64,000 nt of DNA. Source: Myxococcus dinghuensis. Lineage in GTDB: Bacteria; Myxococcota; Myxococcia; Myxococcales; Myxococcaceae. The notes beneath the pieces are model-generated. The model did not search any database. It saw only the letters and a list, made by a program, of their open reading frames with translations, and was not told the DNA's origin. Every line of letters starts with the position of its first letter. Within the stretch, counting starts at the first letter, position 1. The DNA is taken from contig NZ_JAKCFB010000038.1 of the NCBI RefSeq assembly GCF_024198235.1, positions 1-64,000 of the forward strand, read 5' to 3'. Position numbers and translations under genes: made by a program. Below, one piece after another: positions 96 through 20,152 of this stretch.

Positions 96-410
96 TCACC
101 TGCCCAGCGCGGTGACGAGCCGGGCCACGTATTCGATGTCGGCGCCCACGGGGAACCGCAGCCGGGCTCCGCTGGCCAGCACCACCTCGAGCAGCACGGG
201 CCCCACCTGCGCGACGGTCGCCACTTCCACCGGCAACAGGCGCACCGCTGGGGCCTTCCGGGCGTGCTGGCGTCGGCGCCGGTACACCCACGACTGCAGC
301 GTGCTCAGCCTCAACCCTCTCTGCGCGGAGAACGCCTTCTGCGTCAGCCCGCTCGCCTCGAACGCCTCGGCGACCTGCAACCACTCCTGCTTCTCACCCA
401 GCTTCGACAT
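96..410 (-). CDS. tnpA: IS66 TnpA-like accessory protein
   Basis: This 104-residue protein has an N-terminal helix-turn-helix region. The segments WLQVAEAFEASGLTQKAFSA and LRLSTLQSWVYRRRR match the IS66 TnpA/Orf1 pattern in which a 'S-G-x-T-x-x-x-F' helix is followed by 'L-xx-W'. The C-terminal half (VEVATV, LEVVLASGARLRFP) is the usual small beta-rich part ending near 'LVTALGR'. Length is typical of the family. It lies directly upstream of TnpB, and the terminal repeat is about 50 bases further upstream. Role: accessory DNA-binding protein for IS66 transposition. Confidence 0.85.
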   Translation of the reverse strand: MSKLGEKQEWLQVAEAFEASGLTQKAFSAQRGLRLSTLQSWVYRRRRQHARKAPAVRLLPVEVATVAQVGPVLLEVVLASGARLRFPVGADIEYVARLVTALGR

Positions 411-458
411 TCCGGCCAGGGTCCACCACGACTGCTACCCCGGCAATGCCTCCCGACA

Positions 459-479
459 CGTCGCTCGCCGGACGGTTAC
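459..479 (-). repeat. terminal inverted repeat of the IS66 element
   Basis: On the minus strand the sequence from 479 inward starts GTAACCGTCCGGCGAGCGAC, resembling the GTAA-start, pyrimidine/GC-rich tips of IS66 elements. It sits about 50 bases upstream of the TnpA start. The partner repeat is outside the window, so the boundary is inferred. Confidence 0.6.
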
Positions 480-659
480 CGCGGCTGGACTCGCACGGAC
501 GCACTTCTCCCGGGGGAAACGATTGAGGGCTTCGCCCCGGGCAGCGTGGCGTGCGTGGAGCCGACGGACTCAGGCGACGTGATGAAAGTCACCGTGCGCT
601 GGGCGAAGACCTACGTCGTGCAGGGGTTGCTGGCGCACAATCTCAAACTGCGGGGCTGA
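480..659 (+). pseudogene. 3' fragment of a host gene cut by the IS; Hint/intein-like tail
   Basis: An open frame continues from the IS boundary to TGA at 657-659, giving about 59 residues without a start of its own. It includes LPGETIEGFAPGSVACVEP and TYVVQGLLAHN near the end. The 'G-LL-HN' pattern followed by a short tail resembles the C-terminal splice-junction region of Hint/intein-like domains found in polymorphic toxin and myxobacterial surface proteins. That resemblance is short and is an inference. What is directly visible is an open frame lacking a 5' end next to a transposon terminus, so it is most likely a gene remnant. Confidence 0.45.
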
Positions 660-686
660 GATGAGCGTGAATGTGTCGAGATTTGA

Positions 687-1817
687 CTAGTATAGATGCT
701 TCCAGTGCAACCAGTCTTCGGCAAAAAGTCCACACACCGAGCACCTACTTCCAAAAGGAGCTGTGAGTTGCTTGCAGTTTGGGCACACCCAGACGTCCCC
801 ATTGTTTTTCATGTATAGATCAATGAAGTAAGGGTCGTTGAGTTTATGGACGAGCCCTGCGAATAGCATGTCGGATGCCATTTTTGTAAAAGAACCATTA
901 TGTAGGCGGCGGTTTACGTCGACCTGAAGAAGCCCGTGAAGTAGGTGAAGAACGACATGGGCCTCGTTGTCGGTTGCTCCTACTATTGCTGGCTCTTGGA
1001 ACTGGCCGGACCCGATGATGTTAATCAGATCGAAGTATGTCTCGCCAAAAAAGGGAGGCGCCCCGGAGAGCAGTTTGTAGAAAATCACCCCCAAAGACCA
1101 CATGTCGGATTTTCCGGTGCCGGCTGTGGGAGTTTTGATTGACTCAGGGCTTGAATGGCTGATGGCGCCTACAGGCCGAAAGGTGTCTTCTGCGAAGTCG
1201 TCCGTTTTAAATAGCTTGGCGAGGCTGTTCAGGTGGACACCGAAATCAAGGATCTGAATGCCGGTGTTGAGGCATTCTTGCGTGGTTGGATCATATTTAA
1301 ACGCGGAGTTGTTGACCATTATGTTTCCGGGGTGGAGGTCTCGATGGACAATGCCTGTTGTTAGGGAGGGGGTGAGTGCGCAGGCGATGCGCCATGTCAT
1401 CATGAGTGCCTGCTCCCAGTTCCAGGGAGGAGGGGTGTTTTGAATGAATTTCGCGAGAGACTCGCCCTTGGCCAGTTCCATGAAGAAATAATGGACGGGG
1501 AGATTTGGAACCTGCTTTGCTGGCGTTAGGCCCTGGATGATTGAGGGATCTCGTGGGAGTTCAGTTCGACCTGCTGAGTGGTATCTGTAGCTGGGGGCAC
1601 TTAGTTTCAGAAGGGCATCTGCCTCTCTGTAGAATCTATCCACCTCAGTGCTCTTCTTGGGTGCAATAAGAAACTTCGCCGCAACATGTACGCCGTTAGG
1701 ATCTGCGTAGACGAACGTGACGCCCTGACCGCCAGCGCCAAGAGGTTCTATGAGTCGGTGTCCATCCAGTGATTCAAGACCTAGGCGCTTTAGTAGTTCG
1801 ATGCTGTCTGTATTCAT
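687..1817 (-). CDS. Ser/Thr protein kinase with C-terminal zinc ribbon
   Basis: This 376-residue protein is a Hanks-type kinase with intact catalytic elements: Gly-rich loop GAGGQG (27-32), AAK lysine K48, HRDLHPGN (H158-N165) and DFG (191-193), then SPE for the APE motif. There is no transmembrane segment. The tail carries CPNC (345-348) and CSVC (359-362), a rubredoxin-like zinc ribbon that could bind protein or nucleic acid. Codon use and base composition are visibly AT-richer than the neighbours, suggesting recent acquisition. It is transcribed away from the lysis-like cassette across a 210-base divergent region. No substrate is apparent. A role in signalling or defence on a mobile island is possible but unproven. 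Confidence 0.85.
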   Translation of the reverse strand: MNTDSIELLKRLGLESLDGHRLIEPLGAGGQGVTFVYADPNGVHVAAKFLIAPKKSTEVDRFYREADALLKLSAPSYRYHSAGRTELPRDPSIIQGLTPAKQVPNLPVHYFFMELAKGESLAKFIQNTPPPWNWEQALMMTWRIACALTPSLTTGIVHRDLHPGNIMVNNSAFKYDPTTQECLNTGIQILDFGVHLNSLAKLFKTDDFAEDTFRPVGAISHSSPESIKTPTAGTGKSDMWSLGVIFYKLLSGAPPFFGETYFDLINIIGSGQFQEPAIVGATDNEAHVVLHLLHGLLQVDVNRRLHNGSFTKMASDMLFAGLVHKLNDPYFIDLYMKNNGDVWVCPNCKQLTAPFGSRCSVCGLFAEDWLHWKHLY

Positions 1818-1972
1818 TGGGTTTGGCGGGGCAATGAGGGGTGGGCGTTGTGTTTTGGTGTATCAATTAGGGGTTGGAGAGTGCTGCGGTGTTCGGGTTG
1901 AGCTGCAAGGCGCAGCAATTCAAGAGTAGCCGATTGGCCCTAGATCGGCCAGACGCTGTGCTGGACTGAACC

Positions 1973-1984
1973 ACTTCTAGAAGT
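1973..1984. promoter_or_regulatory. perfect 12-bp palindrome in a divergent intergenic region
   Basis: ACTTCTAGAAGT is a perfect palindrome in the 1818-2027 gap between the divergent kinase and the coiled-coil/peptidase genes. A second small dyad, GCTGC-5-GCAGC, lies at 1902-1916. The position suits an operator for one or both directions. No clear promoter boxes were recognised. Confidence 0.35.
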
Positions 1985-2027
1985 CACACCCATTTACCAA
2001 GGGCAACCTCAAGCCCCTGGTGATGTT

Positions 2028-2312
2028 GTGACAGCAGAAGAGACCCAGTCCCTACAGCTCGTAGTCGGCTCCCTGCTCGGAACGGCAGGAGTCGGCGTCC
2101 TCACCTGGGCCGCGAAGTCCCTCGTGGGGGAGATTCGCGCCCTGGTCGAGAAGGTCGCGCGTCAGGACGAGCGCATCAACACCCTTGCCGTGGAGCTGGG
2201 CGCGCTTCGCAGGTGGCGCGACGAGTTCAGCACGGGCCTTCCCGCCCAGGTCCGGCAGACCGTCGAACTGGAGCTGCTGCGCATGTCCCAGGCCAGCAAA
2301 GGGGACGCCTGA
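2028..2312 (+). CDS. small membrane-anchored coiled-coil protein, first gene of lysis-like cassette
   Basis: This 94-residue protein starts with GTG; the nearby ATG at 2023 is followed at once by a stop. A single hydrophobic segment (about 10-30, LVVGSLLGTAGVGVLTWAA) is followed by a charged, heptad-like helix (LVEKVARQDERINTLAVEL). This one-helix-plus-coil layout is seen in small phage membrane proteins of lysis modules, but the protein does not match a family I can name. Its TGA overlaps the ATG of the M15 peptidase (ATGA), so the two are translationally coupled. Function is inferred only from the company it keeps. Confidence 0.6.
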   Translation: MTAEETQSLQLVVGSLLGTAGVGVLTWAAKSLVGEIRALVEKVARQDERINTLAVELGALRRWRDEFSTGLPAQVRQTVELELLRMSQASKGDA

Positions 2313-2845
2313 TGACCCGGGCCAACTTCAAGCGGGTCGACCTTGACCGCGTCTATCTGCCGTTCGTCGTCGTGTCCCTGGATGTCATCGCTCGGTGTAT
2401 GGCCCGGGGCGCTCGCTACGTGGCCACATACGGCTTCCGGAGCCTCGAAGAGCAGGGCGAACTGCGGCGCCTCTACCTCGCGGGCAAGGGCGGCAAGGCA
2501 TCGGCGGCGGGTCTGTCCGCGCACAACTACGGCCTCGCCTTCGACTTCGTCTGTGACGGCGACGCTCGGCCCGGTGTCCAACCCGATTGGCGCCTGCCGG
2601 CCTATCGCGTGCTGGGCGAGGAAGCGACGAAGGGGGGACTCGTCTGGGGCGGCCGGTTCGGTGACGCGCCCCATGTCCAGTGGCCGGGCTACGTGAGCGC
2701 GCTTCAGCTCACGCCCCTTCGCACGCGGGTTGAGCGCGAGTCGCTCGCGTCGGTGTGGGCCCAGTTGGACGAAGAACGCCAGTCGCCGAGGTGGCGCGCG
2801 GCAAACCCGAAGCTCGCGGCCGAACTGTCTCGGCTGGGCTTCTAA
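2312..2845 (+). CDS. M15-family D,D-/L,D-peptidase, phage endolysin-like
   Basis: This 177-residue protein resembles the VanY/L-alanyl-D-glutamate peptidase group (peptidase M15), which cleaves peptidoglycan stem peptides and serves as an endolysin in many phages. Visible family signatures are the YGFRSLEEQGELRRLY segment, SAHNYGLAFDF (the S-x-H-xx-G-xA-xDF zinc motif with His and Asp ligands) and the C-terminal PHVQW with the last His ligand. It has no signal peptide, as expected for a holin-dependent endolysin. It overlaps the preceding gene by ATGA and is followed 17 bases later by a holin-like gene. The longer open frame upstream of the ATG is not coding. Confidence 0.85.
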   Translation: MTRANFKRVDLDRVYLPFVVVSLDVIARCMARGARYVATYGFRSLEEQGELRRLYLAGKGGKASAAGLSAHNYGLAFDFVCDGDARPGVQPDWRLPAYRVLGEEATKGGLVWGGRFGDAPHVQWPGYVSALQLTPLRTRVERESLASVWAQLDEERQSPRWRAANPKLAAELSRLGF

Positions 2846-2862: not shown

Positions 2863-3315
2863 ATGGTCGACGTGAATGTCATCGGTCCGAACCCCGAGCA
2901 GTTCGAAGCCTTCGCGCAGCTCCTCCTCGACGCCGTGACGAGCCGGAACTACGCCCTCGTGGCGTCCCTGGTGGTCGTGGTGCTCGTCTACCTGCTGCGG
3001 AAATTCGGGAGCGCGTTCGTTCCCTTCTTCAACACGGACAGGGGCGGCGCGGTGCTGGTGCTGGCCGTGTCGCTGGCGGGTGCCGTCGCGAACGCACTGG
3101 CCGCTGGGGCGTCGTTCTCCCTGGCCCTGGTACTGACCGCCGTGAAGGTGGCCCTGACGGCGGCGGGTGGCTTCACGCTCATCAAGCGGCTTCTCTTCGG
3201 GGACGCCGCGATTGAGAGCGCCGAGGTCGCGGGCGAGATTGCCGCCGGCCAGGTCGCGGGCAAGGCCGCGGCGATTGCCGTCCTGGAGCAGCTCGACAAG
3301 CGGGGCGAGAAGTGA
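2863..3315 (+). CDS. holin-like membrane protein
   Basis: This 150-residue protein has three hydrophobic segments near residues 29-45, 58-80 and 86-108, and a charged Ala/Glu/Lys-rich tail. An excellent ribosome site (GGAGG at about 2850) precedes the ATG. Size, three short membrane helices, charged C-terminus and position just after an M15 peptidase fit a class-I-like holin that would release the endolysin to the periplasm. No sequence-specific holin family was recognised, so the role is contextual. Its last codons overlap the GTG of the next gene. Confidence 0.6.
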   Translation: MVDVNVIGPNPEQFEAFAQLLLDAVTSRNYALVASLVVVVLVYLLRKFGSAFVPFFNTDRGGAVLVLAVSLAGAVANALAAGASFSLALVLTAVKVALTAAGGFTLIKRLLFGDAAIESAEVAGEIAAGQVAGKAAAIAVLEQLDKRGEK

Positions 3316-3611
3316 AGCTCGGCGCGCTCGTGCTGGCGGTGCTCGTCGCGGTGCCCGCTGCGGGCTCGGAGGTCGTCAGCGTCGAGCGCGCCCAGCTCTT
3401 TCCGGATGGAGGTGCGGCAGCCGTCGAAGTGAAGGGCGGCTGCTGGCTGTCGGAGGCGCGCTGCATTCGCACGGCTGCCGAGCTGGAGCGCCTCCGGGCT
3501 GAGAATGCTTCCTTGCGCGAGCACGCGGGCGACGTGTCCCTCACCGTTGCCGTGGTGGCGCTGGTGCTCGGACTCGGGGCCGGGGTCGCCGTCGCGAAGC
3601 TTGCGGACTGA
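3312..3611 (+). CDS. small secreted/membrane protein, spanin-like candidate
   Basis: This 99-residue protein starts at GTG overlapping the previous stop (GTGA). An N-terminal hydrophobic segment (LGALVLAVLVAVPAAGSEVV) looks like a signal peptide. A helical stretch (TAAELERLRAENASLREH) and a C-terminal membrane helix (SLTVAVVALVLGLGAGVAVA) follow. Two Cys (in GGCWLSEARCIR) could pair in the periplasm. A coiled-coil protein after endolysin and holin genes often acts in outer-membrane disruption (Rz-type), but the C-terminal helix is not the standard Rz layout. It may be a unimolecular variant or an unrelated envelope protein. Confidence 0.5.
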   Translation: MKLGALVLAVLVAVPAAGSEVVSVERAQLFPDGGAAAVEVKGGCWLSEARCIRTAAELERLRAENASLREHAGDVSLTVAVVALVLGLGAGVAVAKLAD

Positions 3612-3870
3612 CAGGGTGGGCGTTTGTCCTGGGCGGATAAGTCTGCCGTTAGCCCGCACGGGTCCCCTGGCGGCATTCCCCAGCGAGCGACTGGCTGAGC
3701 GGGTCTAACTCCCTGGATAGACACGTAGAATGGCCAGTGAGCGGCATTCGACCTTCAAGGTCATAGACCTTAGAGGTTGAGTCAAATGCCATGAACTCTT
3801 GAGGCTGTCAGAGTCGGCTGCTATGCCGCGCATCGCCTGCCGATGTGCTGGCGGCTGACCCGGGGGCCAC

Positions 3871-5193
3871 ATGAGAGCTGTAGTTCTTGCTGCATTGCTG
3901 CTGCTTGCGAGCGGATGCGCTTCGACTCGCGTCGTCCACCTCGACACGGGGCGAGGCGACGCCATCGCCTTCACGCCTGAAGAGTCCGAACCCGTCGAGA
4001 TTGGCGAAGACGCGTTCAAACGTGCGGTTGCACAGCTCGTCCTCGACATGCGGCTGGACGTCGCGTTTCGAGAGGTAGAGCAGGACGACCGCCGTTCGCT
4101 GCTCGCGTCCTCCGCTGGCATCGTTGATGGGGCCCAGGGAAGGTCGGTCCCCCCATCCTACGAGCGCATCTGCCAGCGACAGGACGAGCCCCAAAGCTGC
4201 CTGAGCCTGCTTGCCGGTGGACTGGTGCTCGGCCCCACGGAGCGGCGCATGTTCGCGCTCTACTTCGCGCTCGACACGGTGTGGGAAGGCGTCGAGGAAG
4301 CGATTCGGGACATGGTGAACGCCGCCGCCCTGCGTGCCATGGTGACGACGATGATAGGGACGGCGCTCGTGATGCTGGTGGCGCCCGAGCCCATTACGAA
4401 GCTGATTGCCATCGCCCTGACCGCCTCACTGATTGCGTACCTGGGGACGGGGCCGGTCTGGAACATCGGACAGGGCTTCCTCCGCCTCATGGACGAGTCT
4501 CGGGATGCGGTGCGCGTCGACGAGCTGGCGAGCGCTGGTCATCGCTTCGGGAGGGTGCTGGGGGACAACGGGGCCCGGGTCCTGGTGGTGGTCGCCCTCG
4601 CGGCGCTGGGTGGGAAGAACGCCATGGCCGCCCAAGGTCCCAGGATGCCGGGCTTCGCTCAGGCCGCGAGTCGGGCGCAGATGGAGGGCGGTTTTCAGCT
4701 CGCGGGGGCGTTGACCGGGGAGGTCCAGGCCATTTCCGTCGCGTCAGCCGGGGTCCTGAACGTGACGCTGGCGCCAACGGCGGTCGCCGCGGTCGCGATG
4801 GGGGCTGGCAAAGGCACTGGGGCCGTGACGGGAGCCGTGGGCGGCATCCAGGGCGACCCCGACGGGGAGGTGCATCACATCTGCACGGACAAGAACACGA
4901 AATCCGACGCGACCGGCGGACCCTGGACGCCTGAGTTCGAACGGGTCTTCAATCGTGCTGGGATGAAGCTGGATGACCCTGCGAACCTCATCCGCATCAG
5001 GGAGCACAAAGGCCCGCACCCGCGCGAGTATCACGAAGCGGTCTATTCGCGCATAGATCGTATGACGCGAGGCTGCCGAGGAACTGCGCGCTGCCGGGCG
5101 CTATTGGTGGAGGAGCTTGCCAAGATTGCTCGGGAACTCGTAAGGGAAGGGTCGGAGCTGCGCGCCCTCGTCACCAAGAGGGCTCAGGAATGA
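3871..5193 (+). CDS. SitA-like polymorphic lipoprotein toxin with AHH/HNH-type nuclease end
   Basis: This 440-residue protein has a lipoprotein signal ending ASGC (Cys16). A long middle part includes a hydrophobic stretch (about 155-195) and Ala/Gly-rich helices, and the C-terminal ~110 residues look like a nuclease. These contain EVHHIC (His335-His336) and HKGPHPREYH (His379, His383, His388), the layout of AHH/HNH-endonuclease VII toxin domains. In Myxococcus, TIGR02269 lipoproteins of this build (SitA) are passed between cells by TraAB outer-membrane exchange and kill non-kin lacking the cognate immunity protein. The ATGA overlap with the next gene fits a toxin/immunity pair. A 259-base gap with no gene lies upstream. 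Family assignment is by recalled pattern. Confidence 0.75.
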   Translation: MRAVVLAALLLLASGCASTRVVHLDTGRGDAIAFTPEESEPVEIGEDAFKRAVAQLVLDMRLDVAFREVEQDDRRSLLASSAGIVDGAQGRSVPPSYERICQRQDEPQSCLSLLAGGLVLGPTERRMFALYFALDTVWEGVEEAIRDMVNAAALRAMVTTMIGTALVMLVAPEPITKLIAIALTASLIAYLGTGPVWNIGQGFLRLMDESRDAVRVDELASAGHRFGRVLGDNGARVLVVVALAALGGKNAMAAQGPRMPGFAQAASRAQMEGGFQLAGALTGEVQAISVASAGVLNVTLAPTAVAAVAMGAGKGTGAVTGAVGGIQGDPDGEVHHICTDKNTKSDATGGPWTPEFERVFNRAGMKLDDPANLIRIREHKGPHPREYHEAVYSRIDRMTRGCRGTARCRALLVEELAKIARELVREGSELRALVTKRAQE

Positions 5194-10255: not shown

Positions 10256-10709
10256 CACCCAACCCATTGAACTTACTGGTGAATCACCGTCAGTTGGCCC
10301 TTGCGCTCCAAGCGGAGCCCGCCTTCGGAGGTGACAGCTCCGACCAGGAGGAGGGCCAACGAGGGCTTGGGGCTTCCTCGGAAGTCCCGGCGCCCGTTCG
10401 AGCGCCTCACGGCACCTTCCGTCCTGGCTCCTGGCGTCTGGAACAGGACCGTGAGGTCCCGCGCCTCGTGGTCCCTGGCCTCGTCGACCGCCAGGTCGGC
10501 GTGCCCGCGTCGGGAGGTGCCCCTTGTCCTGGGGTGGCCGCGACGGAGGCCGGGATGCGCCGTCCCTCGACGGGCGTTGAAGAAGACGGGCTTCGACGCC
10601 CTCGGGACCGTTCTCGGCTGGGGGGCCGGGGCCGGTGTCTCCACTCTTCGACGGCCTGGATGCGCTCCGCCGTCGCATCCCACCTCCCCCCTGTTATAAA
10701 GCGCCCCCC
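10256..10709. other. 454-base region between tRNA-Leu and ffh, no confident gene
   Basis: No frame here looks clearly coding. A minus-strand frame at 10273-10683 (136 codons) is Arg/Pro-rich over most of its length, as expected for a spurious GC-rich frame. Its last part, including ALLLVGAVTSEGG and LERKGQLTVIHQ, reads like an authentic C-terminus, so a degraded gene is possible. Short purine-rich stretches occur, but no attachment-site copy of the tRNA end was seen. Confidence 0.4.
10694..10700 (+). promoter_or_regulatory. -10-like box immediately upstream of ffh
   Basis: TTATAAA at 10694-10700 is the only AT-rich hexamer in this GC-rich stretch and lies 9 bases before the ffh ATG. If it is a -10 box, transcription would start within about 3 bases of the start codon, giving a (near-)leaderless mRNA. 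There is no Shine-Dalgarno in the intervening GCGCCCCCC. No good -35 was found. Confidence 0.4.
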
Positions 10710-12356
10710 ATGCTTGAGACCGTCACCAAGGGCTTCCGCGCCGCCAAGAACCGCCTCGCCGGCAAGAGCGAGCTCACTCCGGAGCTGGTCGACGAGTCGC
10801 TCCGCGACATCCGCGTCTCCCTCCTCGAGGCGGACGTGGCCTTCGACGTGGTGAAGAAGTTCGTCGCCCGCGTCCGCGAGAAGGCCGTGGGCGAACTCGT
10901 CCAGACGACCATCACCGACCCTTCGGGCAAGAAGCGCAAGGTCAGCCCGATGGACCACTTCATCAAGATCTGCCACGACGAGCTCGAGGCGCTGATGGGG
11001 CCGGTCAACACGGACCTGAACCTCAAGCCCAAGGGCCAACTGTCCGGCATCATGATGGTGGGTCTGCAGGGCTCCGGTAAGACGACCACCACGGGCAAGC
11101 TCGCCAGCCGCCTGCTCCAGCAGGGGCGCAAGCCGCTGCTCGTCGCCGCCGACATCTACCGTCCCGCCGCCGTGGATCAGCTCAAGGTCCTCGGCGAGCG
11201 CCTCAAGGTGCCCGTCTACCACGAGCCCGGCGTCCAGCCGCCCGAGCTCGCCAAGCGCGGCTACGCGGCCGCCCGCGAGCAGAAGTGCGACGTGGTGCTC
11301 ATCGACACCGCCGGTCGCCTCGCCATCGACGAGGCCCTGATGACCGAGCTGGAGTCCATCAAGGGCAACGTCCACCCCGACAACATCCTCCTCGTCTGTG
11401 ACGCGATGATCGGTCAGGACTCCGTGCGCACCGCCGCCGAGTTCGACCGCCGGCTGGGCCTGGACGGCTTCATCCTCACGAAGCTCGACGGCGATGCCCG
11501 TGGCGGCGCCGCGCTCTCCATCAAGGAAGTCACCGGCAAGCCCATCAAGTTCCTCGGCATGGGCGAGTCCATGGACAAGCTCGAGGAGTTCCGCCCGGAG
11601 GGCCTCGCCGGCCGCATCCTCGGGTTCGGCGACATCGTCGGCCTGATGAAGGACTTCGAGAAGGTCGTCGACGAGAAGAAGGCCGAGGAGGACGCGCGCA
11701 AGCTGCTGTCCGGCCAGTTCTCGATGAAGGACTTCGTCGAGCAGATCCGCATGGTGCGGAAGATGGGTCCGCTCAAGGACCTGCTCGAGAAGTTCCCCCT
11801 CTTCGGCGACCTGACCGAGCACCTCAACCCGGACGAGAAGGAGCTGACCAAGATCGAGTCGATGTACGACTCGATGACGGCCAAGGAGCGCCTGCGTCCG
11901 GACACCATCAACTCCAGCCGCATCAACCGCATCGCCAAGGGCAGCGGCCGCAAGCCCGAGGACGTGCGCGAACTGCTCCAGAAGTTCGGGATGATGCAGC
12001 AGGTGATGGGCACCATCGGCCAGAACCCGGGCCTGCTGGGCCGCATCCCGGGCTTCAAGCAACTGGGCCAGCTCTCCCAGATGCGCAACATGGACCTCTC
12101 CAGCATGTTCGGAGGGGACTCCAAGATGATGGAGAAGATGATGAGCGGCGGGATGCCCGGGATGGGCATGCCCATGCAGTTGCCCCAGGTGGCCCCCGGG
12201 TACACCCCGCCCATGGGCCAGGCCGCCATGGCCAAGGCCCGCCTCATGGGCTACGCCCCGCCCTCCAGCTCCGGCAAGCCCGAGGACCGCGACGCCATCA
12301 AGGAGCGCCGCAAGCGGGAGAAGGAAAACAAGAAGAAGAACCGCAAGAAGAAGTAG
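10710..12356 (+). CDS. ffh: signal recognition particle protein Ffh
   Basis: This 548-residue SRP54 GTPase binds 4.5S RNA and targets membrane proteins co-translationally. The N domain covers about 1-90. The G domain shows GLQGSGKTTT (about 118), the insertion-box part VAADIYRPAAVDQL, DTAGR, and TKLDGDARGG. The M domain, with many Met (KMMEKMMSGGMPGMGMPM), runs from about 310 onward. The tail is extended and strongly basic (ERRKREKENKKKNRKKK), giving about 90 residues more than E. coli Ffh. The start was chosen at MLETVTKGF, the conserved family N-terminus; frames further upstream are not coding. A hairpin terminator follows. Confidence 0.97.
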   Translation: MLETVTKGFRAAKNRLAGKSELTPELVDESLRDIRVSLLEADVAFDVVKKFVARVREKAVGELVQTTITDPSGKKRKVSPMDHFIKICHDELEALMGPVNTDLNLKPKGQLSGIMMVGLQGSGKTTTTGKLASRLLQQGRKPLLVAADIYRPAAVDQLKVLGERLKVPVYHEPGVQPPELAKRGYAAAREQKCDVVLIDTAGRLAIDEALMTELESIKGNVHPDNILLVCDAMIGQDSVRTAAEFDRRLGLDGFILTKLDGDARGGAALSIKEVTGKPIKFLGMGESMDKLEEFRPEGLAGRILGFGDIVGLMKDFEKVVDEKKAEEDARKLLSGQFSMKDFVEQIRMVRKMGPLKDLLEKFPLFGDLTEHLNPDEKELTKIESMYDSMTAKERLRPDTINSSRINRIAKGSGRKPEDVRELLQKFGMMQQVMGTIGQNPGLLGRIPGFKQLGQLSQMRNMDLSSMFGGDSKMMEKMMSGGMPGMGMPMQLPQVAPGYTPPMGQAAMAKARLMGYAPPSSSGKPEDRDAIKERRKREKENKKKNRKKK

Positions 12357-12385: not shown

Positions 12386-12424
12386 GCCCGTGCCCCAAGG
12401 ACATCGTCCTCCTGGAGCACGGGC
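12386..12424 (+). terminator. ffh terminator
   Basis: GCCCGTGC (12386-12393) pairs with GCACGGGC (12417-12424), with further pairing inside (CCAAGGAC/GTCCTCCTGG). TTCGTCGTTT follows. It begins 30 bases after the ffh stop. Confidence 0.75.
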
Positions 12425-12626
12425 TTCGTCGTTTCGAGGCACCAGCCACCATGGACAGGCGTCCACCCGGAGAGACCACCTCCTGAGTGTCACTGCCCCC
12501 TTGGGCCGGGTCTCCAGGAAGTGTCGCGTTGGGGGACAAGAGGGGCACCGTGATACGCGTTGGGGCCAGAGCCCCAGCCCGCGTCCACGCAAGCAGTGGA
12601 ACGACGACTGCATCCCCCGTCCCGCC

Positions 12627-14798
12627 ATGACGCCCCGTCCCAGCCTGAGCCTTCTCCTCGTCGCGATGCTGACGTCGCTCGCATGCATCGACATCCCAGA
12701 CGTCGCCCCCCCAACCGAGACACCAGACGCCGATGGAGGCTCGCAGCCCGACGGAGGCATCACACCTGACGCGGGAGTCGAGCAGGAGTCGGATTTCACT
12801 CTTTCCGTGAACCCCTCCGAGGACTCCATCCTCCAGGGAAGCGAGCGAAGCTTCACGGTGTCGATCCATCGCCAAGGCGGATTCACCGAGGCGGTCGACA
12901 TCCAGCTTGCCTCTGCCCTATCAGGCATCTCGGCAACGCCGCTGAACATTGGCGCCGGCAGCACCAGTGGCACGTTGACGCTCTCTGTTTCGACGAGCAC
13001 GACGGCCGGCGCGACGACGGTGACGGTACGTGGCACCTCCGGAACCCGGGTGAAGGAAACCCAGCTCATGCTGCAGATCGTCGCGCTGGGCGACCTGTCT
13101 GTCGGGTGGATCGAACCCACGGACTCGACTCGGTATACGCGCGAGCGAGCATCCTTCGACGTCCGCGTCGAAGGCGGACAGCCGGAGCAGGTCGAATTGC
13201 TGCATGGAAGCACGCTCATCCATCGCTGGACGGAGCCCCCCTATCTCCACGACTGGGACACGTCCAACCTCCCCGAGGGGACCTATGAAGTGACGGCTCG
13301 GGCCATTCGCGGAGGGACGACGTTCACGAGCCTGCCACGAACCATCATCGTGGACCGGACCGCGCCTCGCGTGGAGAGCCACCTACCAGCCCCTGGATTC
13401 GCGACGGTGAGCGTCCACACGGACATCGAAGTCACGTTCAGTGAGCCCATCCAGCCAAGCAGCCTCGCGGTGGGAGAGGTCCGCATTGTTACCGGTGGTG
13501 GCGCCACGCTCACCGTGACTCCGGAACTCTCCACGGACGGACGGAAACTCAAGCTCATCCCGAGTCAACCGCTGCCGGCGCCAAGCACCATCCGCGTGGA
13601 GCTGGGGTCTCCGGAGAAACGCGTCACGGACCTGGCGGGGAACAGCCTGAGCACCGGCAGCACGTGGGAGTTCACCGTCCCGGCGTGGCTACCGCTGGGC
13701 GGCATCATCAGCGCTCATCCAGGGAACACCCCAGCCGGGCAGGTGGTCATGAAGCGCGGCCTCAACGGGCTTCCTGTGATTGCGTGGTCCGAGTTCGATG
13801 GGACGACCAAGAACGTCCACGCGGCCAGATGGAACGGGAGCACCTGGGAGATGCTCGGGGGAGCGCAGAGCGCCCTTCCAGGCCCCGAGACTCATGCCTC
13901 CGAACCCGCGCTCTATGCAGATGCCACGGGGACGATGCTTCTCGCCTGGAGCGAGATCGCGGGCCAAGGGCTGAAACGCAGCACCTTCGTGCGGAGATGG
14001 GGCAACAACACGTGGCAATCCGTCCCACTGCTACCGATTTCAGGCGAGGCAGAGGTCTCTGTCGACTCGCCATCCATCACGACAACTCAGGCGGGAGCCA
14101 TCATCCTCGATGTGGATGTCGACAACCAAGGAATTCTTACCATCGGGGCATTCAGCCTCGCCCCTGATGCAGCCACATGGGCAACCACTTTCGTCCAGAT
14201 TCCGTTCGAGCAATTCAACGTCGGAGACTCCTCCGTCACTCGAAATGGAACCCAGCTCTACACTGTCTATAGCGCGTACTTCGACAACCTCGAGATTCGA
14301 GGGCTCGTGGTCCTTGTCAATCACAGGGATGCCCTTGGCGCGGCGCCCATCAATCGCTCGCCGATAGGCCCTTCCACGGATGCAACCATCGAGACCAACG
14401 GCAATGGCGAGCCCTCCATCGCATGGGTCGAGACCGCAATCGGGAGTACAGACGGGGCCCTCTTCTTCACGCATTGGAATGGAAGCGCGTGGGAGACGAT
14501 CCAACGTATCAGCCCCCAGACGTCCTCCAACCTCACGCCTAGCATCGCCATTGGGGAGGACGGCAATCCAGTCGTTGCATGGAGCGGGTTCTCTGCCCCT
14601 GAGCGGTCCATCTTCGTCACGCGCCAGATCGATGGGAGCTGGGCTGCCGTCGGAACGCCTCTGAGTGCGACAACGGGAATCGACAGCCCCGCCGCGAAAC
14701 CTGCCGTCATCGTCGGGCCCGACAATGTCCCGATCGTCGCGTGGCAGGAGCGCGATGGGACCAGCGAGGCCATCCACGTGCGTCGGCTCAACCAATAG
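12627..14798 (+). CDS. large surface lipoprotein with Ig-like domains and propeller-like repeats
   Basis: This 723-residue protein has a lipoprotein signal with Cys20 (TSLAC) followed by a low-complexity Asp/Pro/Gly linker. Three beta-sandwich regions follow. One is Ig-like near 50-150 (DFTLSVNPSEDSILQGSERS); one near 155-240 ends TIIVDRTAP, typical of bacterial Ig domains; and one is SbsA-type Big_5 near 245-345 (VTFSEPIQPSS, VTDLAGNSL). The second half repeats a 'xGxPxIAWSE/ARWNGSTWE' unit (GLPVIAWSEFDG, GEPSIAWVE, GNPVVAWSG, NVPIVAWQE), suggesting a beta-propeller. It is probably exposed on the outer membrane; its ligand is unknown. The ATG at 12627 was chosen because it gives the signal peptide. 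Confidence 0.8.
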   Translation: MTPRPSLSLLLVAMLTSLACIDIPDVAPPTETPDADGGSQPDGGITPDAGVEQESDFTLSVNPSEDSILQGSERSFTVSIHRQGGFTEAVDIQLASALSGISATPLNIGAGSTSGTLTLSVSTSTTAGATTVTVRGTSGTRVKETQLMLQIVALGDLSVGWIEPTDSTRYTRERASFDVRVEGGQPEQVELLHGSTLIHRWTEPPYLHDWDTSNLPEGTYEVTARAIRGGTTFTSLPRTIIVDRTAPRVESHLPAPGFATVSVHTDIEVTFSEPIQPSSLAVGEVRIVTGGGATLTVTPELSTDGRKLKLIPSQPLPAPSTIRVELGSPEKRVTDLAGNSLSTGSTWEFTVPAWLPLGGIISAHPGNTPAGQVVMKRGLNGLPVIAWSEFDGTTKNVHAARWNGSTWEMLGGAQSALPGPETHASEPALYADATGTMLLAWSEIAGQGLKRSTFVRRWGNNTWQSVPLLPISGEAEVSVDSPSITTTQAGAIILDVDVDNQGILTIGAFSLAPDAATWATTFVQIPFEQFNVGDSSVTRNGTQLYTVYSAYFDNLEIRGLVVLVNHRDALGAAPINRSPIGPSTDATIETNGNGEPSIAWVETAIGSTDGALFFTHWNGSAWETIQRISPQTSSNLTPSIAIGEDGNPVVAWSGFSAPERSIFVTRQIDGSWAAVGTPLSATTGIDSPAAKPAVIVGPDNVPIVAWQERDGTSEAIHVRRLNQ

Positions 14799-14851: not shown

Positions 14852-15952
14852 TCATGTCTGCTTCTTGGGAACCACGAGCCCCTGGCTCAAGCGCTTGAGG
14901 ACCCGCTTCTTCTGGCGACGCTTGTAGGACTCGTGCGAGTTCTCCCCCAGCTCGTTCTGCCGGGCCGTCTCCTCGTCGACAATCTGGAACTCGACGAGGG
15001 AGATCACCACCCGCCCCTTCCGAGGCCGGGTGTCCTCCTCGGGAGGAGGCAGGTACGAATCCATCCGGATGGGGATGTCCACCACGAAATTGAGCGCGCG
15101 GTAGGAGTTCCCCGAGAAGGTATTTCCATTCCGGGACTCCCGAGCCTCGTAGTCGCGGTCCAGGTGGAGATTGGGGATGAACTGCTCGAAGTGCGGGTAC
15201 TCCTCCAGCACTCCCTTGAACGGAAGGAGTGTGTTCTCCGTCTGGTCTGGAACCACCAGGTGGAACGGGAAGAGTCGCTGAGTCAGGTAATAGAGAACGG
15301 GCAGGAGGTCCTCTCGCGTGCGCGTGACGACCCGAAAGCGCGTCCGGTCATAGACCTGGGCCGCCACAGTCTCCTTCTTCGCGAGCAGCTTCGTGATCAG
15401 GGAGTCCTGCGTCTTGATGGAGTGCGCGAACTCGACGACGGGAAGCCCCTTCTCCTGCATCTCCGTCGCGACGCGGAGAACCTTCTCCATCACCAGTTCC
15501 GCGAGCTCTGCCTCGGAAACCGCCAGCCGGAAGAGGAGATCCCGCCCCTCGATATGCTGGATGACATGCATCACCTTCAGCACGACGCAGGCAATCCGCC
15601 GATGCCGGGAGTTCCCCATGGCGCCTGAGGCCAGGAGGAACAGGTCGTGGATCTCCCGAGGCTTCGCGACCGCATCCGCGACCCGGTAGTTGAAGGTCTT
15701 CCGGAGGTACTCGACGGCCTCCGCCAACACCAACTGCGCCCAGGCCTCGTCATAGGGACGAGAGACGTCGAGTTGGCACAACCGAAGGAACCGATCGACC
15801 TCGTCCCGCTCCTTGAAGTGCATCCGTCGCCAATCGATGACGGAGCCACCACGCAAGATGAGCCGGATGCGCTCGAGCTCGCGCAGGCCCATCTCCGCCA
15901 CCGTGCGGATGGGGATGTCGGGAAGTACTGGGGCGAGGGAGGGGGGCTTCAC
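14852..15952 (-). CDS. TIGR04552-type protein with RelA/SpoT-like synthetase motifs
   Basis: This 366-residue soluble protein is recognisable as the myxobacterial TIGR04552-type family of unknown function. The C-terminal half (about 175-350) carries the motif order of the RelA/SpoT (p)ppGpp synthetase fold. K180-x3-S184-x3-K188 corresponds to the 'K-x3-S-x3-K' ATP motif. D202-x4-R207 (YDRTRFRVV) corresponds to 'D-x4-R', Y284 to the 'GYQS' tyrosine, and E321-x-Q323 (VEFQIVD) to 'VEIQIRT'. ENSHESYKRRQ (337-347) corresponds to 'AExGxxAHWxYK'. The usual Arg two residues before K180 is Ser. The N-terminal ~170 residues are helical and not an HD hydrolase. Possible activities are alarmone synthesis or nucleotide/RNA pyrophosphorylation; none is shown. 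Confidence 0.75.
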   Translation of the reverse strand: MKPPSLAPVLPDIPIRTVAEMGLRELERIRLILRGGSVIDWRRMHFKERDEVDRFLRLCQLDVSRPYDEAWAQLVLAEAVEYLRKTFNYRVADAVAKPREIHDLFLLASGAMGNSRHRRIACVVLKVMHVIQHIEGRDLLFRLAVSEAELAELVMEKVLRVATEMQEKGLPVVEFAHSIKTQDSLITKLLAKKETVAAQVYDRTRFRVVTRTREDLLPVLYYLTQRLFPFHLVVPDQTENTLLPFKGVLEEYPHFEQFIPNLHLDRDYEARESRNGNTFSGNSYRALNFVVDIPIRMDSYLPPPEEDTRPRKGRVVISLVEFQIVDEETARQNELGENSHESYKRRQKKRVLKRLSQGLVVPKKQT

Positions 15953-16069: not shown

Positions 16070-16546
16070 CTACTTCGACGCAACCTCTCGGTTGTTGCGC
16101 CACTCCGACTGCTTCACCAGCTTGCCGTCCGCGGCGAACTCCTGGACGGTGCCCTCGCGCGAGCCGTGGACGTAGTGCTCGACCTTCTTCGTCTTTCCGT
16201 TGGCGTGGAGTTCAACGACGTCGCCGTGGAAGTTCCCCCCCTGGAGCTGGGCGGTTCCGTTCACGTTGCCCTTCTCGTCGAAGAAGGTCCACTTGCCCGA
16301 ACGGAAGCCATTCTCAGACTGGCCTTCGGCCTGCTTCGCCCCGTTGGGATAGAACCACATGGCGGGACCATGAGGCTGACCGTCACTCGTGCGCACGCAC
16401 ATCGTGGTGTCCTTGCCCTGCTCAACGCCACCCGTCTGGCGGGTCCCTGCCGGACAATTCAGCCTGGGAGTCGCAGCCATCGCAATGGAAGGCATCGCAA
16501 CCAAGACAGTCAGGCCAACGAACCGGGTCCACTTTCCGAGCATCAT
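16070..16546 (-). CDS. secreted MORN-repeat (YwqK-like) protein
   Basis: This 158-residue protein has a signal peptide (FVGLTVLVAMPSIAMAA). About four MORN-like repeats follow: GPAMWFYPNGAKQAEG, GKWTFFDEKGNVNG, GDVVELHANGKTKKVE and GTVQEFAADGKLVKQ. Such repeats form beta-hairpin ladders, often in envelope proteins; automated pipelines sometimes name them 'toxin-antitoxin YwqK antitoxin' without function. The start was set at the second of three possible Met codons (MMLGKW), with a GAGGGA site at proper distance; the upstream MERGKS start is less likely. It is on the same strand as the TIGR04552 gene, separated by a hairpin. Confidence 0.75.
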   Translation of the reverse strand: MMLGKWTRFVGLTVLVAMPSIAMAATPRLNCPAGTRQTGGVEQGKDTTMCVRTSDGQPHGPAMWFYPNGAKQAEGQSENGFRSGKWTFFDEKGNVNGTAQLQGGNFHGDVVELHANGKTKKVEHYVHGSREGTVQEFAADGKLVKQSEWRNNREVASK

Positions 16547-16673
16547 GCTTTTCCCTCTTTCCATTCGACGAGACAGCCACCGTCACTTCGATACAAACAG
16601 ACGGGCCGGACCTTCCTGATATTCAGCCTCACACCCGACCCGCCACCAGCGAACACGTGCGCTGAAATGCGAA

Positions 16674-16746: not shown

Positions 16747-17676
16747 TTAGCGGGTGATGTTCTGGCAAACAGGGTTGCCGTTGGTGAAGTAGAAGCCCAC
16801 CTGGATCGCCTGGGAACCCGTCGGGCGGCACAGGTAGACCTGGAACTCCGCGTCACGCAGGTTGGTCGTGCTGCGGTTGTAGCCCGTGCCCGGGACCAGC
16901 AGCCCCTTGCCGAAGACGTCGGTCTGCGACGCCGCCGTGGTCACGTAGAAGAAGCCAGCCAGACCGTTGCGGGTCGCCGGCCAGTCGGTGTCCGTGCGGT
17001 AGGCGCGAACGCTCACGATGAACGCGTCATCGGCGCCGGCGCCCTGCGCGCAGTAGCTGGAGTTCGTCTCATAACGAACGCGGGTCACCTGGTAGATGAC
17101 CGGACCGTTGCTGCTGGTCACGTTCCAGCTCGGGCGGTTGCTCGAGAAGTTCTCGCAGGTCGACGGGGCCACCGGGGCGGCGGTGCAGGTCGAGCTGCTG
17201 CAGAACTCACCGTAGGAGCAGGTGCTCTGGGCCGTGCCGCTGCAGGTCTTGCCCGTCGTGTCGTCCTCCTCGCACTGACCCGTGCCGGTGTTGCACACGC
17301 GGCCGACGGAGCAGTCGGTGTCGGAGCCGCACTTCGGCACGCACACGTTGTCGAGGTCGGAGCAGACCAGGTCGGTAGACGTGGAGCCCGTGCCACCGTT
17401 GCAGAGCACGTCGGTGGAGCACTGGCAGATCTTGGTGTTCGCGTTCGAACCCGTGCCGCCCAGGGCCGCGCAGGTCTTCGCAGTGTCGGGACAGTCGGAG
17501 CCCGACTCACACGTGGTCACACAGACGCCCGCGGTGGGGTGGCAGATCTCCGTGCCCGCGCAGTCGTCGTTGGTGTTACAGCCGCTGGCGCTCGTCTCGT
17601 CGTCGCCGCAACCCGCCATCAAACCGCTCACCGCGCCCAGTGCCGAGAGCACCAGCATCATCTTGCGAAGCTGCAT
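16747..17676 (-). CDS. Cys-rich lipoprotein
   Basis: This 309-residue protein has a lipoprotein signal with Cys23 (LMAGC) then GDDE; the acidic residues after Cys could affect sorting. The N-terminal ~170 residues hold over 20 cysteines in repeated patterns such as CNTNDDCAGTEICHPTAGVC and CGSDTDCSVGRVCNTGTGQC. This 'C-x5-C-x5-C-x6-C' unit is common in myxobacterial surface lipoproteins. The C-terminal ~130 residues form a beta-rich domain (VIYQVTRVRYETNSS, FQVYLCRPTGS, VGFYFTNGNPVC). Function is unknown. A good SD (GGAGGGAATCCC) precedes the ATG. It lies downstream of gltJ but has its own likely promoter. Confidence 0.8.
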   Translation of the reverse strand: MQLRKMMLVLSALGAVSGLMAGCGDDETSASGCNTNDDCAGTEICHPTAGVCVTTCESGSDCPDTAKTCAALGGTGSNANTKICQCSTDVLCNGGTGSTSTDLVCSDLDNVCVPKCGSDTDCSVGRVCNTGTGQCEEDDTTGKTCSGTAQSTCSYGEFCSSSTCTAAPVAPSTCENFSSNRPSWNVTSSNGPVIYQVTRVRYETNSSYCAQGAGADDAFIVSVRAYRTDTDWPATRNGLAGFFYVTTAASQTDVFGKGLLVPGTGYNRSTTNLRDAEFQVYLCRPTGSQAIQVGFYFTNGNPVCQNITR

Positions 17677-17929: not shown

Positions 17930-20017
17930 TTAGAACGTGAAGGGGAAATCGATGGGGTCGCCCTGCTTCTTGTGACGAGGGAAGTTCCAGCTCTTGATGA
18001 GCCCGGAGATGCAGGACGCCATGTAGGTGCTCTTGAACTCGTCCGTCTTGCACGTGACATTCGACGTCTTGCCGCTCGGCTGGATGGTCCACCGCATCAC
18101 CAGCTTGCCGCTCAGCGACGGGTCCTTCTTCTTCTGCTCGTTCACGCACTTCACGATGGCGGGCTTGTTGTTGAGCACCACCGCCATGACGTCGGAGGTC
18201 TGCAGCCGCTCGGGCACGGCGCTGCCCGGCTCCGGCGGGACATACGCGGTGCGCGTCGTCTCCGCCTGCTTGGTCTCGGGCTTCGCCTTCTTCACGCCGA
18301 ACAAGTCGTCGAAATCGTCATCCTTGCTCGACGACTCCACGCGCTCGGTCCGAGCCACCGGCTGCTCGTCCGCCTCCTCGCGGCGGTTGTTTTGCGAGGA
18401 ATTGGACCGTCGCGTCGACGGCCGCTCCACCTTCGCCACCACGGCATGCTCCGGAGGCTTCGCCGCCTCCACAGGCGCTGCGGGCGGAGGCGTCACAGGC
18501 GCTGAGGGCTGAGCCGTCGCCACCGCGGGCGGCGGCGTCGCCACGGGAGCACCCGCCACGGGAGCACCCTCCGCGGGTGGCGTCCCTGTCGTGGGAGTCC
18601 CCGGCGCGCCGGTGCCTGCCACGGGAGCCGTCCCCGCCGCGGGCACCGCGGCGACCGTGGTGGGCTGCGTTGGCGCCGCCGGCGGAGGCGTCACAGGCGC
18701 CGTCGGGGGAGGCTGCGTGTTCACCGCGACCTGCGCGGGAGGCGGCGGTTGCGCGGCCGCCACGGGCTGCTGCGCCGACTCCCCCTTGTTCGAGAGCATG
18801 GCGACCGCCGCGCCCCCCAGGCCCAGCACACCGACGACGATGCCGACGATGAGGCCCACCTTCCCCTTGCCCCCCGACGCAGGCGGAGGCGGGGCATACG
18901 CGGGCGCATAGCCCGGAGGCGGATACGGCGCGGGAACAGGCTGCGCGTAGTGCGGGGCAGGCTGCCCGTAGGGCACGGGCGCCGGCTGCCCGTATGCGGG
19001 CATGGGCTGCTGCGGATAGGGCGCGGGCGCCGGCTGCATGTGCGCCGCCATGGCCGCGCTCGCCCCCATCAGCGACGGCGACGACACAGGCTCCGGCGGC
19101 GGCATGGGCACGTCGAGCAGCCGGGACTGCGACACCGGCTCGCGGCCCAGCGCGGGAGCGGGCGTCGGAGGCGGCTTGGTCAGCGCGTCGTTCTCCTCCT
19201 TCACCAGCGAGGCCAGCACGCTGCCCACGGAGGGCTTCCACCCCACCGGGGCCTCGGCCGCGGAAGGCGGCGGCGTGGGCGAGCCCTTCGACTTGCCAGC
19301 GCTGAACGCCGACTGCACCGGCCCCGAGGCCACGGAGGGCGTCGTGCCCGACACCGGCTCGGGCGCGACGATGGTCGGCTTCGAGGGACGCGGCGCCAGC
19401 ACCGACGCCAGCTCCGCCGTCTCCGACAGCGGAATCCAATCGCTGAAGCCCGAGCGCCAGCAGAGGCTGTCGGGCCCCACCTCGCCACGGTCCCACGCGT
19501 CCTTCACCTTCTCGACCGAGAGCGGGCCCACCTGCTTCTCGTCGATGGCGACGTACCACTCGTGCGACGTGGCCGCGGGCTTGGCGTCCTCCTTGTCGGG
19601 GGCATCCTCCGCCTCGGCCAGCTTGCGCACGTTCTCCGCCGTGGCCTCGCGCGCCGCGGCTTCGCCCGAGGACTCACCCGCCGGAATCTTGTGCGTCCCG
19701 GAGCTGAGCACCTGGTCGAACACCGCGCCGATCTCGTCCTCCTCCACGTCCGTGAAGAGGCCGCCTTCGGGCGGAGTCCCCAGCGACGTGGGCAGCGCGG
19801 CCGCCGCGGACGACTCGGCCTCCTTGCTCGCGCCGTTCGAGGTGGAGGGAGCGGTCGACGCGGAGTCCCCGGCGGCGTCCTTCCCGGCGGACGCACCTGC
19901 GGGACGCACGGTGATGGTATGGCCGCACTTCTTGCAACGAACCTTGACCCCCTTGGGGCCAACCTTGTCGTCGCTGATCATGTACTGCGCGCGGCAGCTG
20001 TCACAGACGAAGCGCAT
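17930..20017 (-). CDS. gltJ: gliding motility protein GltJ (AgmX)
   Basis: This 695-residue inner-membrane component of the Glt gliding machine starts with an N-terminal zinc ribbon (C5, C8, C28, C31; MRFVCDSC and VRCKKCG). An acidic linker precedes a GYF domain (about 152-206: WYVAIDEKQVGPLS, WRSGFSDWIPL). Then follow a long Pro/Ala-rich region, one membrane helix (about 385-405), and a further Pro/Ala/Glu-rich periplasmic linker. The TonB-like C-terminal domain (about 600-695) ends in IDFPFTF. In M. xanthus the cytoplasmic zinc ribbon and GYF parts interact with MglA and motility regulators, and the periplasmic end reaches toward the outer membrane. The start at MRFVCDSC is the conserved one; 21 upstream codons of the frame were excluded. 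Confidence 0.95.
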   Translation of the reverse strand: MRFVCDSCRAQYMISDDKVGPKGVKVRCKKCGHTITVRPAGASAGKDAAGDSASTAPSTSNGASKEAESSAAAALPTSLGTPPEGGLFTDVEEDEIGAVFDQVLSSGTHKIPAGESSGEAAAREATAENVRKLAEAEDAPDKEDAKPAATSHEWYVAIDEKQVGPLSVEKVKDAWDRGEVGPDSLCWRSGFSDWIPLSETAELASVLAPRPSKPTIVAPEPVSGTTPSVASGPVQSAFSAGKSKGSPTPPPSAAEAPVGWKPSVGSVLASLVKEENDALTKPPPTPAPALGREPVSQSRLLDVPMPPPEPVSSPSLMGASAAMAAHMQPAPAPYPQQPMPAYGQPAPVPYGQPAPHYAQPVPAPYPPPGYAPAYAPPPPASGGKGKVGLIVGIVVGVLGLGGAAVAMLSNKGESAQQPVAAAQPPPPAQVAVNTQPPPTAPVTPPPAAPTQPTTVAAVPAAGTAPVAGTGAPGTPTTGTPPAEGAPVAGAPVATPPPAVATAQPSAPVTPPPAAPVEAAKPPEHAVVAKVERPSTRRSNSSQNNRREEADEQPVARTERVESSSKDDDFDDLFGVKKAKPETKQAETTRTAYVPPEPGSAVPERLQTSDVMAVVLNNKPAIVKCVNEQKKKDPSLSGKLVMRWTIQPSGKTSNVTCKTDEFKSTYMASCISGLIKSWNFPRHKKQGDPIDFPFTF

Positions 20018-20152
20018 CTTTTCCGCCAAGCCTCGGAAATGACGGGAGAAATCCCGTCGGAATCGTAGAAGTCGCCACACGAGGGGTCAAGGATCAGCTC
20101 CTCGACCGCCCGGTTGGTCATCAACGCGTGAACCCTCGCTGGGGTTCTACCG

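Follow-up and report, generated by a model that had tools for sequence, protein, structure and literature searches.

Does a gene filed under a protein family of no assigned function encode a divergent relative of the alarmone synthetases? The gene belongs to NCBIfam family TIGR04552 and lies in what we call the window, the whole 64,000-nt stretch analyzed here (Myxococcus dinghuensis GCF_024198235.1, contig NZ_JAKCFB010000038.1, positions 1 to 64,000). A preliminary description of the sequence had noted synthetase motifs in the C-terminal half of the product, in the order and local spacing known from RelA/SpoT, and had suggested that the family is RelA/SpoT-related.

The TIGR04552 protein and its conserved residues

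The window protein matches the TIGR04552 model with 414 bits (E = 4e-124) over model positions 3-352 of 352, which places it above the curated cut-off of 125 bits with the full model covered. It also matches the sister model TIGR04562 over its full length, and is thus a full-length member of a family to which NCBIfam assigns no function. Comparison with the nearest relative revealed 143 synonymous and 33 non-synonymous codon changes, indicating that the gene is under purifying selection. The gene and the parts of its product are as follows.

14852 to 15952, minus strand: TIGR04552 gene (366 aa, GTG start, predicted pI 9.2)
15443 to 15952, minus strand: N-terminal all-helical domain, residues 1-170 (conserved L33/G35/S37, A108, C122, K126, H133)
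14882 to 15442, minus strand: putative RelA/SpoT-type synthetase domain, residues 171-357
15389 to 15415, minus strand: K180-x3-S184-x3-K188, candidate ATP/phosphate-binding motif (the residue two before the first Lys, K-2, is S/G/N, not Arg)
15332 to 15349, minus strand: D202-x4-R207, candidate metal/catalytic motif (invariant R205 where Rel has Ala/Gly)
15113 to 15271, minus strand: family-specific insertion, about residues 228-280 (conserved P235, N240, N277, S280)
15101 to 15103, minus strand: Y284, predicted counterpart of the acceptor-stacking Tyr of GYQS/GYRS
14921 to 14992, minus strand: E321-x-Q323...N333-E-x-G336-x3-H340-x2-Y343-K344, predicted counterpart of ExQIRT...AExGxxAHWxYK

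The residues named in the preliminary description (S178, K180, S184, K188, D202, R207, Y284, E321, Q323 and the ENSHESYKRRQ stretch from E337 to position 347) are all found where it placed them. Where QIRT has Arg, the window protein has Val, and the Thr position is occupied by D326, which is invariant in the family.

To gauge conservation, we reduced 101 distinct sequences to 52 at <85% identity. Mean column identity in the diverse family alignment is 34%, while K180, K188, D202, R205, E321, Q323, D326, N333, H340, Y343 and R346 are invariant in 52 of 52 members, including the three residues (K188, D202 and E321) on whose conservation the preliminary description had staked its reading. S184 (50/52), R207 (49/52) and Y284 (49/52, with Phe in the other 3) are nearly invariant. 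We searched 5,480 six-frame ORFs from the collected loci with an ordered regular expression (K-x3-S/A-x3-K ... D-x4-R ... Y ... E-x-Q-x16-H-x2-Y-K). It matched 116 TIGR04552 and 32 canonical Rel ORFs and nothing else; one matching ORF, in locus L102 and outside the fetched Rel set, was confirmed as Rel. The same 5,480 ORFs, when reversed, gave 0 matches. The ordered motif in the TIGR04552 protein is not a product of chance.

One lineage departs from this pattern. In L182 and L183 (family f19 genomes), K180, S184, D202, H340 and Y343 are all replaced and the gene is kept. Judging from these replacements, the two homologues likely represent a pseudo-enzyme lineage, suggesting that a RelA/SpoT-like fold can serve without catalysis; their joint loss is what would be expected if the residues form one active site. 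In members from another phylum (L169-L171), the catalytic residues are partly changed.

The N terminus had been described as something other than an HD hydrolase, and our searches agree. No HD, TGS or ACT domain was matched in the window protein by NCBIfam or Pfam, and the N-terminal model matched no PDB fold. The region is helical and strongly conserved across the family (A108, C122, K126, H133). An HD-derived origin was considered and rejected: the resemblance of KVMHVIxHIxGREL to the KLADRLHN of Rel is out of register, and the best PDB match of the N-terminal model (E 1.7, HIV capsid) is noise.

Relationship to the RelA/SpoT synthetase domain

Several independent comparisons connect the C-terminal half of the protein to RelA/SpoT. 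Of 33 diverse members, 22 show a match to the Pfam RelA_SpoT family (PF04607; best E 9e-6), while every other Pfam family matches at most 1 of the 33. The window protein itself reaches 19.6 bits, below the gathering cut-off of 27 bits, and the most divergent (bridging) member, P0002, also stays below it with 24.0 bits (E 5e-5), despite covering model positions 3-111 of 113 and having motifs, DLVGVRLVT and QYRSLHI, that resemble the classical ones. When the family profile was compared with PDB sequences, the small alarmone synthetase (SAS) YwaC/SAS2 ranked first, with the motifs in register but at only E 0.19. In a profile-profile alignment (hhalign) with Myxococcota Rel, E was 7.7e-5 over 147 columns, and the K/S/K, D-x4-R, Y and ExQ...H..YK residues were aligned.

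Reciprocal searches gave the same picture. The only non-family matches of the family HMM are Rel proteins; conversely, a Rel HMM matches 111 family ORFs (best E 2.6e-4, best reversed decoy 4.0) and a SAS HMM matches 108 (best E 2e-6, best reversed decoy 0.16). For the NCBIfam family models, the next match after the family is canonical Rel, and a weak match in genome G005 proved to be its Rel.

An AlphaFold model built from 31 sequences had a mean pLDDT of 85.9 and a pTM of 0.84, with low confidence at residues 276-282, the loop before Y284. When this model was compared to the PDB with Foldseek, all 31 matches at E <= 0.001 were of the RelP, RelQ, Rel or RelA type, the best (1.6e-5) being RelP, so that the predicted fold is not an unrelated one. 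The TM-scores were modest (TMt up to 0.55) and the rmsd was about 10 A, which counts against the explanation we favor. Since the profile, Pfam, alignment and AlphaFold/Foldseek lines agree, TIGR04552 can be regarded as a divergent RelA/SpoT-type branch, as the preliminary description had supposed. Profile comparison and predicted fold show the C-terminal half to be a homolog of the RelA/SpoT synthetase domain in which the catalytic residues are preserved in order. This half thus has the predicted features of a RelA/SpoT-type pyrophosphokinase fold.

Within this superfamily, the closest sequence and fold matches are RelP/SAS2 (YwaC) and RelQ/SAS1 (PDB 6ewz, 6fgk and 5ded), which share the predicted C-terminal fold and the K-x3-S-x3-K, D-x4-R, Y(R)xL and ExQ motifs in the same order. 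Unlike RelP and RelQ, TIGR04552 has 366 aa, a helical N-terminal domain, Arg at the third position after the motif Asp (D+3), an insertion of 40-67 residues, no Arg at K-2 and a vertical single-copy distribution. With the canonical long RSH proteins (Rel/RelA/SpoT), it shares the order of the synthetase motifs and their spacing, including the 19 residues from Glu to His in the last motif. It differs from them in the replacement of the QIRT Arg and Thr, in identity of about 9-27% over aligned stretches and in lacking an N-terminal HD and C-terminal TGS/ACT domains. Fold class is also what it shares with the toxSAS/CapRel tRNA pyrophosphokinases and the Apk (p)ppApp synthetases; in contrast to these, it is a core gene with a different extra domain and without toxin-antitoxin context.

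The differences from Rel are consistent across the family. The preliminary description had observed that the Arg at K-2 is Ser in the window protein (S178), and the change proved general, with S/G/N in 118 of 118 family ORFs compared to Arg in 26 of 31 Rel found by the same regular expression. Likewise, D+3 is Arg in 118/118 family ORFs and Ala/Gly in 31/31 Rel, and the fifth residue after the motif Glu is Asp in 118/118 and Thr in 31/31, respectively. The QIRT Arg position is hydrophobic in the family, and the stretch between the motif Asp and the Glu exceeds that of Rel by about 40-67 residues. With neither the K-2 Arg nor the ExQIRT Arg-Thr, the family lacks sequence hallmarks of a classical (p)ppGpp synthetase. 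As judged from sequence, the window protein thus falls outside PF04607 as curated, and outside classical SAS/RSH by motif. Curated cut-offs hide a whole branch of the RelA/SpoT superfamily.

Distribution and predicted activity

TIGR04552 is found above its cut-off in 153 of 195 Myxococcota genomes, nearly always as a single copy, and in 6 of 46 genomes of the phylum to which locus L050 belongs. A plasmid search gave no TIGR04552 match, and two scans of viral contigs found no relative. A search of phage records gave one match, a TIGR04562 protein (L179; MW495066.1, Microcystis phage MaAM05, 117573-130571), but this lies beside glyS, secF, secD-type, mtgA and gatD genes in a stretch that looks bacterial, and we rejected a phage origin. 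The window genome has one copy of canonical Rel (L081), its only RelA_SpoT protein above the Pfam cut-off. This distribution suggests that TIGR04552 is vertically maintained beside Rel and is neither a Rel replacement nor a mobile toxin. In L102, a canonical bifunctional rel (212-2389, plus strand) precedes the TIGR04552 gene (2962-4059, plus strand) by about 570 bp. Separately, the TIGR04552 gene of the window has an 84% identical counterpart on a contig labelled Comamonas sp. KCTC 72670 (L011, BNCN01000006.1); this contig is probably mislabelled or contaminated with Myxococcus-like DNA.

In the open literature, we found TIGR04552 in one paper, where it is annotated in the mutation table of evolved Bdellovibrio (PMC9888234). 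The literature searched contained neither TIGR04562, CHP04552 or IPR030823 nor the relation of TIGR04552/TIGR04562 to RelA/SpoT, and the text of the 2011 RSH survey makes no mention of myxobacteria.

In RelP and RelQ, the donor triphosphate is held by the Lys/Ser/Lys residues and Mg2+ by Asp and Glu; the Glu activates the acceptor 3'-OH and the Tyr stacks on the acceptor base. As all of these donor, metal and acceptor residues are present in TIGR04552, its activity is probably, by analogy, that of a pyrophosphokinase. The donor nucleotide, probably ATP, would be bound through its triphosphate by K180, S184 and K188; D202 and E321 would hold Mg2+, with E321 also activating the acceptor 3'-OH and Y284 stacking on the acceptor base; and the 3'-OH of a nucleotide, or of an RNA end, would receive the pyrophosphate. 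Changes at the K-2, D+3 and QIRT positions, along with the insertion before Y284, imply a pocket unlike that of classical (p)ppGpp synthetases, and a non-classical donor or acceptor is plausible on these grounds. The toxSAS and Apk enzymes demonstrate that the RelA/SpoT fold can switch acceptor (PMC11559606, PMC12226406). As Apk specificity was not converted by substituting the syn motifs alone, the acceptor of TIGR04552 is not readable from its sequence.

How well do other activities account for these data? TIGR04552 might be a second (p)ppGpp synthetase, equivalent to a small alarmone synthetase with an added regulatory domain and feeding the ordinary stringent-response pool. The shared catalytic constellation, the position of RelP/RelQ as nearest solved relatives, the presence of canonical Rel as a possible hydrolase and the Rel gene just upstream on the same strand in one genome (L102) are all compatible with this. 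However, the K-2 Arg, which stacks on adenine in classical synthetases, is S/G/N here and the QIRT Arg is lost. In addition, starved relA mutants of M. xanthus build up little (p)ppGpp, so that a second strong synthetase would hardly be expected; we consider this activity unlikely. Catalysis might instead be dispensable, with the fold binding a nucleotide and signaling via the N-terminal domain and a GYF-domain partner encoded upstream (see below). The deep lineage that keeps the gene after losing K180, S184, D202, H340 and Y343 (L182, L183) would fit such a sensor, as would the altered substrate-contact residues of the remaining members, but nucleotide binding alone would not require an invariant D202 and E321, and the full catalytic set, including these metal-binding residues, is invariant in nearly all other lineages. 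A pseudo-enzyme throughout the family therefore appears quite improbable.

RelA/SpoT belongs to the wider nucleotidyltransferase superfamily, and the insertion and altered pocket residues might allow a changed chemistry, for example the transfer of NMP onto RNA or protein. We regard this as very improbable, given that the closest structure matches are specifically of the RelA/SpoT type and that the pyrophosphokinase-specific ExQ...AExG...H..YK block is kept at exact spacing. Least credible is a toxSAS-like toxin or defense effector acting by pyrophosphorylation of tRNA CCA ends or by (p)ppApp synthesis. While the same fold can act on tRNA in toxSAS (PMC11559606), the TIGR04552 protein is basic (pI 9.2) and CapRel structures, such as 7ztb, are among its weaker Foldseek matches, it shows neither the toxin-antitoxin pairing nor the patchy mobile distribution of toxSAS: the gene is single-copy and spread through most of the phylum, no small antitoxin-like neighbor recurs in the loci compared, PADLOC and plasmid searches gave no match, and the sole phage-record match lies among bacterial housekeeping genes.

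Gene neighborhood and a possible envelope link

The TIGR04552 gene of the window lies among the following neighbors.

17930 to 20080, minus strand: protein with Zn_ribbon_4, GYF_2 and a TonB-like C terminus (ZnR-GYF; GltJ/AgmX-like architecture), upstream and co-directional
16747 to 17676, minus strand: Cys-rich lipoprotein-like gene, located between the TIGR04552 and ZnR-GYF genes in Myxococcaceae (no Pfam match)
16070 to 16564, minus strand: MORN_2 repeat protein gene, located between the same two genes in Myxococcaceae
10635 to 12356, plus strand: ffh (SRP54) ORF, convergent neighbor (identified from sequence; syntenic at order level)

A ZnR-GYF gene, or a relative sharing its domains, is co-directional and upstream of TIGR04552 in 25 of 40 diverse fetched loci and 39 of 48 near loci; among these loci, a gene of this type was never found downstream on the same strand. 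In several deep lineages (L083, L091, L092, L093, L111, L115 and L121) it directly abuts or overlaps the TIGR04552 frame, a pairing seen across several Myxococcota families, while the small MORN_2 and Cys-rich genes are usually inserted between the two in Myxococcaceae. The window genome contains GYF_2 just five times, too rarely for the linkage to be accidental. We take the combination of ZnR, GYF and TonB-like domains to be the architecture of GltJ/AgmX, although Pfam found no TonB domain in the protein encoded at 17930-20080. A second GYF protein of the window genome (L172) is 42% identical to it at the C terminus; we found no giant gltI-like ORF beside L172.

In one family (L099, L100 and L116), the upstream position is held by an FHA protein, which Pfam confirmed for L099, or by a relative sharing the C-terminal domain. 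For GltG of the gliding machinery, FHA plus TonB is the domain combination given in PMC3169522. GltG-like FHA proteins with the ZnR-GYF C-terminal domain flank TIGR04552 in L093 (4399-6483, minus strand) and L099 (490-2445, plus strand).

The single-copy, largely phylum-wide occurrence of TIGR04552 beside Rel and the GltJ-like gene upstream suggest an envelope-linked housekeeping or signaling enzyme rather than a toxin. The helical N-terminal domain, which stands in place of HD, would probably regulate or target the enzyme, and from gene order the conserved ZnR-GYF-TonB-like envelope protein would probably anchor or control it; the product of the enzyme may feed a housekeeping or envelope/polarity signal alongside canonical Rel in Myxococcota. 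Taken as a whole, the explanation we consider likely is a divergent, envelope-linked branch of RelA/SpoT-type pyrophosphokinases with an altered pocket. A bolder version, which we offer only tentatively as a possibility, is a phylum-wide enzyme that pyrophosphorylates nucleotides or RNA with a donor or acceptor unlike those of known alarmone synthetases, uses a new helical regulatory domain and a GltJ-like tether, and makes its signal at the envelope or pole.

In Myxococcus, (p)ppGpp sets off development (see the review PMC12288465). An overlooked second enzyme of RelA/SpoT type, if real, would add nucleotide or RNA modification to the control of starvation, polarity or motility, and because a GltJ-like gene is linked to it, the envelope/motility idea can be tested in a laboratory strain of Myxococcus.

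Other neighbors of TIGR04552 are more restricted. In the window, an 802-aa protein with Big_5 and Big_7 Ig-like domains (12390-14798, plus strand) lies between ffh and TIGR04552, as it does in some Myxococcus relatives only. In one group of deep lineages (L094-L098), TIGR04552 is located near mazG, rpsT and murJ-like genes, and these neighbors recur in that lineage group only.
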